A stretch of DNA of 64,000 nucleotides, from the NCBI GenBank assembly GCA_019218365.1, contig JAHUUJ010000001.1:310001-374000 (forward strand). Direction: 5' to 3'. Position 1 is the first letter of the stretch, and every line of letters begins with the position of its first letter. Position numbers and translations under genes: made by a program. The notes beneath the pieces were generated by a model. That model worked only from the letters and a program-made list of their open reading frames with translations. It was not told the origin of the DNA and did not search any database. Positions 18,099 to 46,976 of this stretch are shown piece by piece. The DNA comes from Actinomycetaceae bacterium TAE3-ERU4 (GTDB taxonomy: Bacteria > Actinomycetota > Actinomycetes > Actinomycetales > Actinomycetaceae).

Positions 18099-18302
18099 TT
18101 ACTTTCGGTGCATATTTTTCGCCTCGGCCGCAGCCTGACGAGCAACGTCTTCACCCTCAGTTTCAACAGCAGAGATAAATAGCTCCACGTCCTCAGACAG
18201 TGGGGGAACAGGCTTAAACCTTAGACTCCAAGTCCAATAAACCAATCCTCCCCAGATGATTGAAATCGAGATAACCATCATTACGATTGCTTCTGTTGTC
18301 AT
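18099..18302 (-). CDS. metS: MetS-like small subunit of NSS amino-acid importer
   Basis: A 67-residue protein with one N-terminal membrane segment (TTEAIVMMVISISIIWGGLVYW) and a polar, acidic cytoplasmic tail. It has the form of the methionine/alanine importer small subunit known with Corynebacterium MetP. Its ATG overlaps the TGA of the transporter gene (ATGA), so the two are translationally coupled. It ends just before the palindromic terminator. Confidence 0.85.
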   Translation of the reverse strand: MTTEAIVMMVISISIIWGGLVYWTWSLRFKPVPPLSEDVELFISAVETEGEDVARQAAAEAKNMHRK

Positions 18303-20047
18303 TTTAGTTCACCCTCCGGCTTGGCAGATACATTTGTTGTTTTGCCGAATTCGTAACCGTATTCGAACTCGTCATCGTCTTCTAGAACACCAGCACGCTT
18401 GCCGGCAGAAGGAAGAATACTCAAGCGCGAGTCATTCTTAATAACCCGTCCGTATTTATCGCGCTTACGGTGAGGTAGGGGCATTACGGTAAAGTCGTCT
18501 ACATCCTGGTTCCAGAAGGTCACGGTAAGTATGTAAGCCAGCACGAAGCACAGGATTAGTGAACCCCATCCAAAGCCGACTGTGTACCAAGTCGGATATT
18601 CCCCATATCCACCAGAAATTAGCGAAGCAGTGTTCTTAATGAACATAACTGTCAAGGTAGCAGGAACCACGAAACCAACCATAAGGTCCCACCACTTCCC
18701 AATTCGCACGTTGGAAAGAGCGTTAAGGTGACGACGCAAACGTGACAAGCGCGGATGCAAAACCGTAACGAGGATTGAAGTAGAGATAGCGCAGATTACG
18801 ACACCAATTTCGTTGATGTACTTATCAACAATATCTAGGGTGTTAAGACCTGACTCGGAAGCGAACAAGACCAACGAAATGACCGCAGCGGCTAATCCTA
18901 CAATGATTGCAGCACGGGACTTGCTCCATCCAAATTTATCCTGGAATCCACCTGAAACAACCTGTAGAAGCGAAAGCATGGATGTCAATCCAGCTAAAAC
19001 TAGCGAGAAGAAGAAGAAGAAACCAAAAATTGGTCCTCCGGGCATCATCGAGATAATTGTGGGGAACGAGATGAAGGAAAGAACCACACCGGTTATTCCT
19101 TTCAGTTCACCAACTTGCACACCCTGCTGATGTGCCATAAATCCAAGGGCCCCAAACACTCCAATACCAGCGAGAAGCTCAAATGAAGAGTTAGCAAACG
19201 CAGCAACAAAACCGGTTCCGTTCAGGTTAGTACGGCGCGGTAGGTAGGAAGCATAGGTAACCATGATTCCAAAGGCAATGGAAAGCGAATAGAAAATCTG
19301 ACTAAACGCTGCAATCCAGACGCTATCATCAAGCAAGGCTTCCCAGCGTGGGGTAAAGAAAGCGTTAAGACCATCAATTGCACCAGGAAGTGTGATAGAC
19401 CGTATTACTACAGCTCCAAAAAGAAGAACTAAAACGGGAATAAAGATTTTGTTAGCACGTTCAAGCCCTTTTTGGATACCGAGCGCAAGAATAAAAATTG
19501 TCAGCGCCCATATTGCAAGTAGGGGAAGGAAAACACCCCAAACAGGATTAAAGGAGAAGGAGTCAGCCGAAGCTGGATTTCCTCCTCCAAGGAAGTCTTT
19601 AATTAAGAAAGTACCTGGGTCATCTCCCCAAGCAAGCGTAAAGGAAAAGAATGCATAGCGAGCCGCCCAGGCAATAATAACCGCGTAATAAGTCAAAATT
19701 ACGAAGGAAACAGCTACCTTAAACCAACCGAGGATTTCCGCTCGCTTATGAATACGGCGAAATACAGTTGGTGCAGCACCGCGCAAACGGTGTCCGAGAG
19801 AGTAATCCAAAAGGAGGTAAGCAACACCAGCAGCCAGCAGCGCGACAATGTACGGGATTAGAAATGCGCCACCACCGTTAGTGTAGGCTACACCGGGGAA
19901 ACGCCAAATGTTTCCTAGACCAATTGCAGAACCTACCGCAGCCAGAAGGAATCCGGTCTGCGAAGACCATGTTTCTCTGTCGTTGTTATTCTTTCTCTGA
20001 TTTGGGGCAAACGCTTTCGCATCTGCCGCCGGTGTTGAAGTGCTCAT
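18299..20047 (-). CDS. metP: NSS-family sodium-dependent amino-acid transporter (MetP-like)
   Basis: A 582-residue transporter of the neurotransmitter:sodium symporter family. The signature GSAIGLGNIWRFPGVAYTNGG marks TM1 with its unwound substrate/sodium site, and about 11-12 hydrophobic segments follow. The cytoplasmic C-terminal tail of about 60 residues ends acidic and polar. The likely role is sodium-driven uptake of methionine/alanine or related neutral amino acids together with the 67-aa subunit. ATG 20047 has GGGAG upstream. A paralogous pair lies at 45256-46976 with a different promoter region. Confidence 0.88.
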   Translation of the reverse strand: MSTSTPAADAKAFAPNQRKNNNDRETWSSQTGFLLAAVGSAIGLGNIWRFPGVAYTNGGGAFLIPYIVALLAAGVAYLLLDYSLGHRLRGAAPTVFRRIHKRAEILGWFKVAVSFVILTYYAVIIAWAARYAFFSFTLAWGDDPGTFLIKDFLGGGNPASADSFSFNPVWGVFLPLLAIWALTIFILALGIQKGLERANKIFIPVLVLLFGAVVIRSITLPGAIDGLNAFFTPRWEALLDDSVWIAAFSQIFYSLSIAFGIMVTYASYLPRRTNLNGTGFVAAFANSSFELLAGIGVFGALGFMAHQQGVQVGELKGITGVVLSFISFPTIISMMPGGPIFGFFFFFSLVLAGLTSMLSLLQVVSGGFQDKFGWSKSRAAIIVGLAAAVISLVLFASESGLNTLDIVDKYINEIGVVICAISTSILVTVLHPRLSRLRRHLNALSNVRIGKWWDLMVGFVVPATLTVMFIKNTASLISGGYGEYPTWYTVGFGWGSLILCFVLAYILTVTFWNQDVDDFTVMPLPHRKRDKYGRVIKNDSRLSILPSAGKRAGVLEDDDEFEYGYEFGKTTNVSAKPEGELK

Positions 20048-20128
20048 TGCGACTCCCGTAATTGTTCGTACATTGCAAGAGTCAGTTTACCAATACTTTA
20101 CTATTTTTACTTTACGTCAATTTGTGAT

Positions 20129-45000: not shown

Positions 45001-45051
45001 ACCTGGCTTCCAGATAAAGAGGAAATCTATCCTTGAATCTGGAAGCCAGGT
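45001..45051 (+). terminator. Terminator of the fhaA-pknB operon
   Basis: A perfect 15-bp stem (ACCTGGCTTCCAGAT / ATCTGGAAGCCAGGT) with a 21-nt loop, followed by TTTTATATTTATTTT, starting 12 nt after the pknB stop. Confidence 0.88.
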
Positions 45052-45142
45052 TTTTATATTTATTTTGATAACTCTAAATATTGCATTTATATTTTCTAAG
45101 ATTTATGATTCTCCTGTGTTCGCAATGATTGAGATTATTAAC

Positions 45143-45224
45143 GGGTGCGCAGGCTAGAATAGCCGCGAACCCGCAGTCTTGCGCACCCACCCCTTCACTT
45201 TAATTTGTAAGTGGAGGGTTTTTT
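45143..45224 (+). promoter_or_regulatory. Structured leader with intrinsic terminator upstream of second NSS transporter
   Basis: A 9-bp closing stem (GGGTGCGCA 45143-45151 with TGCGCACCC 45180-45188) encloses two small hairpins (GGCTA-GAA-TAGCC 45152-45164 and GCG-AACC-CGC 45165-45174), forming a three-way junction. Two nt later an intrinsic terminator follows (CCCTTCACTT 45191-45200 with AAGTGGAGGG 45209-45218, one G-U pair, then TTTTTT), 32 nt before the transporter ATG. This aptamer-plus-terminator layout is that of a riboswitch or attenuator. I cannot match it to a known class. Confidence 0.55.
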
Positions 45225-45255
45225 GTTACCCTTTTTCGATTCCTTGAAGGTAAAA

Positions 45256-46833
45256 ATGTCTAAATCCCCAACAAGAGAAGTCTGGTCTTCACGTACAGTA
45301 TTTTTAGCCGCTGCTATCGGTTCAGCTATTGGTCTGGGAAATATTTGGCGGTTCCCTTACATTGCTTACAAAAACGGGGGTGGATCTTTTTTAATTCCAT
45401 ATATTGTCGCCCTGGTAACGGGTGGAGTTGCAATGTTGTTTTTCGACTATGCCATCGGCCACCGTTTCCGGGCTGCGCCCCCGTTAGCTTTCGCTCGTAT
45501 CTCTCGGTTTGCTGAACCGTTGGGGTGGGTACAAACATTAATTACATTCTTTATTGCCGTGTACTACATGGCAGTTTTAGCCTGGGCTGCTTTCTACACT
45601 TTCTTCGCTTTTACTACCGCGTGGGGTGATGATCCAGATACTTTCTTTATGCAAAGTTTCTTACAGGCAGATACTAAATCAGTACATACAGGAACTTTTC
45701 TTCCTGGGTTAACTCTAGTTTTAGCTCTCATTTGGGTGGTTTTACTGTTAGTAATGTCTTTCGGTGTAGAAAATGGTGTAGGGCTAGTTTCTAAGTTTGC
45801 AGTTCCTACACTGGTAGTTTTGTTCCTGATAATTACAGTACGGGCGTTGATGCTACCTGGTTCAAGCGAGGGGTTAAACGCACTTTTCACCCCGGATTGG
45901 GCAGCTTTAACAGACCCGCAAGTGTGGATGGCTGGGTATGGCCAAATTTTCTATTCTCTTGCTGTCGGTTTTGGAATTATGCTTACTCAAGCTTCTTATC
46001 TTAAGCGTCGTACAGATATCACAACTACCGCTTGGACGGTTGCTTTCGCTAACTCTATGTTTGAAGTTTTCGCGGGTATCGCAGTTTTCTCGGCACTTGG
46101 CTTTATGGTTCACCAAAGCGGTTTGCCGATTGAGAAAGTTGTTACCTCGGGAGTCGGATTGGCGTTTATCGCATTTCCAAAGATTATTTCCACTATGCCC
46201 GGTGGAGCATTCTTCGGGGTTTTGTTTTTCGGTTCGTTATTCCTTGCTGGATTTACCTCGATGTTTTCAATTATTGAGGTGCCCATTTCTTCCTGCATGG
46301 ATAAGTTTGGCTGGTCCCGCCGTAAGGCAGTAGTGCTGGTCGGTGCAAGCGCTGGTTTCCTATCACTACTTTTACTTCCAACAACCACTGGTTTGGCCGC
46401 ATTAGACATCATGGATTCTTACATCAACATTTTCGGAATTGTGCTTGTCTCGCTGGTAACTCTTTTAACGGTTGGTTGGGGATTAAAGATGTTCCCGGTT
46501 CTTTCCCGGCACTTGGATGCGATTTCCACGATTCGTACACGCGGATGGTGGATTGTCGCAGTAGGTGTTTTAACACCAACAATTTTGTTGTTGACGTTTA
46601 TTGGACAGGTATATTCTTTGTTTAATCCACCGGCAGAAGGTGGCTATTCGAATCCACAGCTTTTGGTTTATGGATGGCTAGTTTCTCTACTTATCTACCT
46701 TGGTGCGCTGGCGTTAACCTATGCTCCTTGGAAGAAAGGCGTTGATTTCCAGGCGCCAAAGGAATTCACTTTTGATTCAGAAAATCCGCAAGCAGCACTT
46801 GTTCTAGAGACCAAAGAAGGGGAAGTACTATGA
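45256..46833 (+). CDS. Second NSS-family sodium-dependent amino-acid transporter (MetP-like)
   Basis: 525 residues from ATG 45256 (GAAGG 6 nt upstream); the frame extends to 45211, but that would begin inside the leader terminator. TM1 signature GSAIGLGNIWRFPYIAYKNGGG, about 11-12 membrane segments, short C-terminal tail. It is a paralogue of the 18299-20047 protein, also with a small partner gene overlapping its stop. Likely sodium-driven uptake of a neutral amino acid. Expression is probably controlled by the structured leader in front. Confidence 0.9.
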   Translation: MSKSPTREVWSSRTVFLAAAIGSAIGLGNIWRFPYIAYKNGGGSFLIPYIVALVTGGVAMLFFDYAIGHRFRAAPPLAFARISRFAEPLGWVQTLITFFIAVYYMAVLAWAAFYTFFAFTTAWGDDPDTFFMQSFLQADTKSVHTGTFLPGLTLVLALIWVVLLLVMSFGVENGVGLVSKFAVPTLVVLFLIITVRALMLPGSSEGLNALFTPDWAALTDPQVWMAGYGQIFYSLAVGFGIMLTQASYLKRRTDITTTAWTVAFANSMFEVFAGIAVFSALGFMVHQSGLPIEKVVTSGVGLAFIAFPKIISTMPGGAFFGVLFFGSLFLAGFTSMFSIIEVPISSCMDKFGWSRRKAVVLVGASAGFLSLLLLPTTTGLAALDIMDSYINIFGIVLVSLVTLLTVGWGLKMFPVLSRHLDAISTIRTRGWWIVAVGVLTPTILLLTFIGQVYSLFNPPAEGGYSNPQLLVYGWLVSLLIYLGALALTYAPWKKGVDFQAPKEFTFDSENPQAALVLETKEGEVL

Positions 46834-46976
46834 GTTTTTCAGCACTTGTAATGATGGTGGTTTATCTTTCGGTAATTAGCGGTGGTCTGCTTACCGGGGT
46901 GGCGATTATGGCAACTCATCGGGACGAGGAAGCCGGATGCCTTCCTCCTGAAAAAATGGAGTTGGGCGAAGAATAG
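46830..46976 (+). CDS. MetS-like small subunit (48 aa) of second NSS transporter
   Basis: A 48-residue frame starting at the ATG that overlaps the transporter TGA (ATGA) and ending TAG 46974-46976. It has one membrane segment (SALVMMVVYLSVISGGLLTGVAIM) and an acidic tail ending GEE. Size, topology and coupling match MetS-type subunits. It is shorter than its counterpart at 18099 (67 aa). Confidence 0.85.
   Translation: MSFSALVMMVVYLSVISGGLLTGVAIMATHRDEEAGCLPPEKMELGEE

Follow-up and report, generated by a model that had tools for sequence, protein, structure and literature searches.

The metP locus and its leader

In the window, which is the whole stretch of 64,000 nucleotides analysed here, a gene for an amino-acid:sodium symporter of the NSS (SNF) family is preceded by a folded leader that ends in an intrinsic terminator. 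The product of this metP-like gene reaches 105.5 bits with NF037979 (cut-off 50), matches PF00209 at E 1.2e-109 and has relatives of solved structure. A small metS-like ORF overlaps metP by 4 nt, including the metP stop codon, and matches NF033494 (E 1.6e-8, 34.1 bits vs. a cut-off of 70) and PF16951 (26.0 bits vs. 26.2). By analogy with Corynebacterium glutamicum, we take metP-metS to be a methionine/alanine importer, with the substrate putative. The gene preceding the leader is presumably pknB, judged by eye, and directly after this kinase-like gene lies a hairpin with a T-rich tail (45035-45053, within 45001-45060), apparently a separate terminator of the upstream operon. The leader and the genes behind it comprise the following features:

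45081-45109, + strand: promoter-like element TTGCAT, 17 nt, TATGAT, chosen by eye
45116-45157, + strand: probable leaderless upstream open reading frame (uORF), GTG...TAG, 13 codons, MFAMIEIINGCAG, with a C-terminal block conserved in relatives
45134-45145, + strand: conserved block ATTATTAACGGG, AUUAU(U/G)A(G/A)CGGG in relatives, in 12 of 12 leaders
45142-45173, + strand: competing hairpin H1 (segment 1:2), CGGGT/ACCCG, CGC/GCG and GGCTA/TAGCC, from conserved complementarity
45143-45188, + strand: three-way junction with closing stem P1 (segment 1:3), 45143-45151/45180-45188, from folding and relatives
45152-45156/45160-45164 and 45165-45167/45172-45174, + strand: junction hairpins of 5 bp and 3 bp, from folding
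45191-45224, + strand: intrinsic terminator, a 10-bp stem (45191-45218) followed by six T, from folding
45256-46833, + strand: metP-like gene, NSS (SNF) amino-acid:sodium symporter, 525 aa (NF037979, PF00209)
46830-46976, + strand: metS-like small subunit gene, 48 aa (NF033494 and PF16951, both below cut-off)

An earlier note on this DNA had placed a candidate new riboswitch or attenuator at 45143-45224. Reading and folding the sequence reproduces what it described there, namely a three-way junction with a 9-bp closing stem and hairpins of 5 bp and 3 bp, a terminator beginning two bases behind it with T6 at 45219-45224, and a short spacing to the transporter gene, as T6 ends at 45224 and the metP ATG lies at 45256 with 31 nt between. 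The interval is correct and at the same time too narrow, since the unit probably begins at about 45081-45116. The note had also stated that the paralogous transporter lacks such a leader, with which the covariance model R1 agrees, as it matches this genome once, at the metP leader. The paralogous NSS gene (18302-20047, minus strand) is preceded by a 9-codon ORF, MYEQLRESQ (20044-20073, minus strand), whose stop codon overlaps the ATG of the gene (ATGA) and which is possibly translationally coupled to it; the relative L037 does not have this overlap of ORF and gene.

A metP orthologue (E≤1e-150) is present in 10 of 213 genomes of the family, and the same 10 carry the leader: three of the genus of the window (Boudabousia), six of genus g24 (Arcanobacterium), and G196 (Actinomyces vulturis). 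Outside the family, two Dermabacteraceae (L085, L086) with a 78% identical MetP carry it as well. The conservation among relatives that the earlier note had proposed to look for is thus found, with the leader in 12 of the 12 genomes in which this MetP-type transporter was found through a search of the family genomes and a peptide-pattern scan suited to detecting close relatives. MetP of the window shares 78% identity with the Dermabacteraceae proteins but 70-72% with the other Boudabousia copies, which suggests that metP and its leader moved together and were transferred as a unit.

The model R1 was built from six leaders, with L033 and L039, whose loops differ, not included. In the 213 family genomes it finds nine leaders at E≤2.7e-5 and the tenth, from G049 (source of L033), at 0.064 and clear by eye; its best match in any other family genome has E 0.0068. 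It finds one place per leader-bearing family genome, the exceptions being weak antisense self-matches in G073 and G196, and this single place before one gene argues against a dispersed riboswitch. A DNA similarity search in 200 family genomes (E≤1) returned short matches in 99 genomes, among which, apart from the window itself, the match in G196 (E 0.0085) is the leader. No further leader was found among 11 weak R1 matches inspected from searches of 213 family genomes, 296 genomes of the class (E≤0.1) and 396 genomes of the order (E≤0.01); these comprise all 5 matches from the order, 2 of 9 from the class and those in 4 of 36 other genomes of the family, the remainder having a per-genome E of at least 0.013. 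The searches may have passed over divergent leaders, because R1 does not contain L033 and L039 and because the large searches use stricter filters. In G077 (genus g23), at L055 1501-1538, an apparently intergenic P1-like hairpin (CGGGTGCGCAG/CTGCGCACCCG) matches R1 at E 0.0068, a score within chance over 213 genomes, and it has neither the ATTAT block nor a T-run. The gene downstream of it is, as we assume by eye, a sodium:alanine symporter.

The upstream open reading frame and its conserved block

In the window, the -10-like hexamer TATGAT ends 6 nt before the start codon of the uORF, and -10-like hexamers, picked by eye, lie 6-9 nt upstream of this start in 12 of 12 leaders; a program scan of the window preferred another promoter, TTGATA-17-TATATT at 45065-45093. 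Judged from the hexamer, transcription would start at or next to the start codon, and at this distance the uORF looks leaderless and translated. The start codon is ATG in most leaders and GTG in the window and in L041, and the window has an alternative in-frame ATG at 45125. The frame extends over 13-15 codons and ends in the P1/P2 region in all 12 leaders, typically with ...IISGCAG-stop. Detailed analyses were performed with nine leaders, three near copies of the 12 being left out. With GTG read as M, the nine encode MFAMIEIINGCAG (window), MSNANLIISGHARIS, MTYASLLIISGYAG, MTLQDGLIISGCAGL, MLRKSLEIISGCAG, MLGTGLEIISGCAG, MLRKSLEIMSGCAG, MLRKSTEIISGCAG and MFKMVEIMNGCAG, and the peptides of L042, L043 and L086 are, by eye, repeats of those listed. 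In 9 of 9 leaders the start codon precedes the conserved block by 18 or 21 nt with no intervening stop. This distance has been kept despite divergence of the N-terminal codons, and it is mainly from this that we infer translation of the uORF.

In 12 of 12 leaders the stem of the junction overlaps the 3' end of a short ORF whose first codon sits at the probable start of transcription, an arrangement that suggests the ribosome as the sensor. With regard to the two halves of the earlier proposal, the attenuator is upheld by a conserved leader with a terminator before metP in 12 of 12 genomes, whereas the riboswitch is not favoured because of this overlying ORF.

The peptides do not name a signal. 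By eye, Ile-Ile or Ile-Met is all that recurs among the nine and none of them shows a run of a single residue, so that no regulatory codon can be named; sensing of methionine or alanine through codon runs was dismissed, as the nine peptides hold no such runs. The leader lacks the regulatory-codon enrichment of classical leader-peptide attenuators and in this respect falls outside that class. Leaderless cysteine attenuators occur in Actinobacteria, and a Cys lies near the stop codon of the uORF in 10 of 12 leaders (by eye). Cysteine sensing was nevertheless set aside, because this single Cys is replaced by Tyr in L034 and by His in L033, alongside compensation in P1.

All 12 leaders contain the block AUUAU(U/G)A(G/A)CGGG, each with ATT as its first Ile codon. 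Among the Ile codons of the respective metP genes, ATT makes up 24/34 in L032, 7/37 in L033, 10/37 in L034, 10/38 in L039, 8/30 in L040, 20/37 in L041 and 1/33 in L085; multiplied as if independent, the chance of ATT in all seven is about 4 in 100,000, two of the seven being Arcanobacterium and thus not fully independent. AGC is a minor Ser codon too in these metP genes. The sole changes seen in AUUAUUAGC alter amino acids: ATT to ATG in L044, L085 and L086, and AGC to AAC in the window, L085 and L086. In both folds described below, AUUAU is mostly single-stranded, and (G/A)CGGG is paired. The bases of the block thus seem to be constrained by something besides the peptide sequence and beyond codon preference.

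Conservation of a largely unpaired block at the nucleotide level keeps readings alive in which the RNA itself is sensed or bound. An RNA-binding protein could recognise AUUAU(U/G)A(G/A)CGGG or P1 and decide on termination, with translation of the uORF secondary; the conserved unpaired block would suit such a site, but the ORF is kept in all leaders analysed, and we consider this account improbable. A hybrid sensor, in which the block is read both as codons by the leaderless ribosome and as RNA (as a pseudoknot or as a ligand or protein site), is conceivable at a low probability, and it would make expression of the importer depend on translation and on a second signal at once.

Alternative pairings, terminator and proposed mechanism

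The 47-nt junction folds at -26.6 kcal/mol compared with a shuffle mean of -14.1 (sd 2.6; z -4.8; 0 of 200 shuffles as good), and the leader from 45130 to 45260 is also more stable than its shuffles (z -4.9). In an alignment of seven leaders, from which L033 and L039 were excluded because their loops differ, every one of the 91 cells (13 pairs of P1 and P2 in each leader) is paired. The covariation that the earlier note had wanted sought in the stems of the junction is detected in the closing stem P1, to a modest degree: two P1 pairs are changed on both sides in the seven leaders, which is reached by 47 of 500 shuffles. By eye, L033 adds a third P1 change, from U-A to C-G. Moreover, segments 1 and 3 match each other better within a leader than when exchanged between leaders, with 22 of 5000 permutations as good. 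A survey of 36 segment pairs in the seven leaders gave uncorrected Fisher p-values of 4e-10 for 1:3, 2e-8 for the two terminator arms and 1e-5 for 1:2, where the values for 1:2 and 1:3 are optimistic because the folds guided the choice of segment boundaries. Weaker values were obtained for 0:3 (7e-4), for 2:3 (3e-3) and, marginally considering the 36 uncorrected tests, for segment 1 with the stretch after the terminator (0.04).

Segment 1, the 5' arm of P1, has two alternative downstream partners, segment 2 in H1 and segment 3 in P1; as computed, 1:2 and 1:3 are mutually exclusive, both using segment 1, which overlaps the uORF. Folded from its probable 5' end at 45116, the leader of the window has as its minimum a hairpin other than the junction (-44.8 kcal/mol), and the three-way junction appears once the first 15 nt are blocked (-41.6 kcal/mol). 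Folding from the uORF start predicts H1 together with a 0:3 helix as the minimum in eight of nine leaders, L039 preferring P1. In single leaders the p-value for 1:2 pairing ranges from 0.013 to 0.11. No H1 pair is changed on both sides and cognate 1:2 segments pair no better than swapped ones (437 of 5000 permutations), so that the argument for H1 comes from conserved complementarity. The 0:3 pairing is possibly part of the leader fold: cognate 0:3 pairs are better than swapped ones (83 of 5000 permutations as good), and segment-0 shuffles are beaten clearly in L034 (13 of 2000), weakly in L033 (135 of 2000) and not in the other seven leaders.

The predicted choice between the two partners depends on the 5' end. 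With the 5' arm of the terminator just made, 1:2 is favoured in seven of nine leaders when no ribosome is present, and 1:3 has a probability of 0.64-1.00 in nine of nine when nt 1-20 are blocked. Once the terminator loop has been made as well, the predicted switch becomes less distinct: L034 prefers 1:3 without a ribosome (0.53 vs. 0.31) and L044 is split with nt 1-20 blocked (0.42 vs. 0.47).

The same segments could be arranged in a ligand-binding riboswitch lying inside the uORF, in which a metabolite stabilises an H-type pseudoknot. Segment 1 would then be split between two partners, segment 2 taking its first bases (e.g., GCG) and segment 3 the remainder, with P2 inserted and AUUAU single-stranded. 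Both helices can coexist in nine of nine leaders, which is equalled by 0-11 of 500 shuffles in eight leaders and by 83 of 500 in L039, and conservation of AUUAU(U/G)A(G/A)C at the nucleotide level, with AUUAU mostly unpaired in both folds, would fit a binding site. However, the first pseudoknot helix has only 3-4 bp, the start codon that is in frame in all leaders would be needless, and in the 10 family genomes R1 marks one place before one gene, apart from the two antisense self-matches. In addition, the survey of 36 pairs found no helix that would switch the terminator. The earlier note had recognised no known riboswitch class, and likewise Rfam at gathering score gives only tRNAs in the window and in eight loci of relatives; at E≤10, the region 45060-45300 yields five sub-threshold matches, none of them credible. 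We consider the riboswitch unlikely.

The intrinsic terminator sits between the uORF and metP; by eye, each of the 12 leaders has a T-run hairpin at the corresponding position, and in the free and constrained folds from the uORF start the terminator hairpin forms in every state obtained. In the survey of 36 segment pairs in seven leaders, neither arm of the terminator has a partner further upstream that pairs with it better than expected by chance, and a base-pairing antiterminator was set aside because no convincing candidate reached a terminator arm from its 5' side. The probability that segment 1 pairs with the terminator base is 0.49-0.51 in L033 when nt 1-20 are blocked and at most 0.17 in the other eight leaders (0.00 in the window), this being also the most that ACCC/CCCG repeats at the border of P1 and terminator give in those leaders. 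As such pairing is probable only in L033, the antitermination step of the model below is taken over by analogy from C. glutamicum ilvBNC.

Antitermination could also come from a ribosome that continues past the stop codon of the uORF and melts the terminator directly. Beyond this codon the frame contains no further stop up to the T-run in nine of nine leaders and the other frames carry a stop in four and five of nine, but the stretch is short and stop-poor and the lineages are few; the stop codon varies (UGA in L039), and by eye the read-through peptide is conserved no more than the shared RNA gives, which leaves this route quite improbable. Alternatively, the terminator could be an ordinary, unregulated one or the end of a small transcript, with metP expressed by constant leak. 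In the window, the 31 nt from the T-run to the ATG offer little room for a separate promoter, so that some read-through must occur, as leak would have it; two exclusive partners for one segment, together with a uORF kept in three genera and a second family, speak against an unregulated element, which we regard as highly improbable.

The elements established by computation, namely the conserved ORF, the partly covarying P1, the conserved 1:2 complementarity, the terminator and the one-to-one link with metP, are best accounted for by a conserved and clade-restricted attenuator, whose outline would resemble that of leaderless ilvB-type attenuators. We consider it probable that the leader controls metPS by translation-dependent transcription attenuation, on the plan of the leaderless ilvBNC attenuator of C. 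glutamicum. In the proposed mechanism, transcription would begin at or next to the start codon of the leaderless ORF of 13-15 codons, and H1 (1:2) could form first behind RNA polymerase, whereupon the terminator would fold and transcription stop (OFF). If a ribosome paused within the first few codons, it would block the 5' segment 0 while segment 1 stayed free to pair with segment 3; the resulting P1 directly adjoins the foot of the terminator and may destabilise it (ON). Once a ribosome had reached the stop codon, segment 1 would be covered, P1 would not form and the terminator would win. Read-through into metP would accordingly be regulated, with the P1 fold as the presumed ON state.

Comparison with known systems

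Riboswitches of the preQ1-II type are built as an H-type pseudoknot with an inserted hairpin. The pseudoknot considered above for the metP leader would share this outline, although here it is a computed compatibility of two helices and no Rfam match is obtained. In a limited search of the open-licence literature, we found no description of RNA-level control of an NSS-family amino-acid importer. If confirmed, the proposed attenuator would show leaderless leader-peptide attenuation, beyond biosynthesis operons, acting on the uptake of amino acids in Actinomycetaceae, and it would pose the puzzle of an attenuator without regulatory codon runs yet with an RNA block kept at the nucleotide level.

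Two elements of Actinobacteria, as outlined in PMC1262725, share parts of this architecture. In the LEU element before leuA, a uORF overlaps a possible pseudoknot and an alternative hairpin as in the metP leader; there the Shine-Dalgarno box finds its pairing partner in a run of Leu codons, whereas the metP leader has an intrinsic terminator and no Leu run (PMC1262725). The Cys-codon leader peptides before cys genes of Mycobacterium and other Actinobacteria are likewise short ORFs with Cys near the stop codon, from which the metP leader differs by its single, replaceable Cys and by the presence of a terminator (PMC1262725).

The closest likeness is to the ilvBNC attenuator, or ilvB-II motif, of Corynebacterium, which in the accounts of PMC11857589 and PMC10272879 combines a leaderless or near-leaderless peptide with hairpins that share bases and a U-run terminator. 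In C. glutamicum, the start codon of the leader is described as lying one nucleotide from the transcript start, and the antiantiterminator and antiterminator have common bases, with a boundary of three nucleotides common with the terminator (PMC11857589). As far as these accounts describe them, the ilvB leader peptides are rich in Ile/Leu/Val codons and their antiterminator extends into the terminator, two features that are not clear in the metP leader, and the ilvB attenuator precedes biosynthesis genes whereas the metP leader precedes a transporter gene. The two also share their history, as the ilvB-II motif, like the metP leader, was first considered a possible riboswitch (PMC11857589; PMC10272879): a folded leader can pass for a riboswitch when the uORF that overlies it is overlooked.
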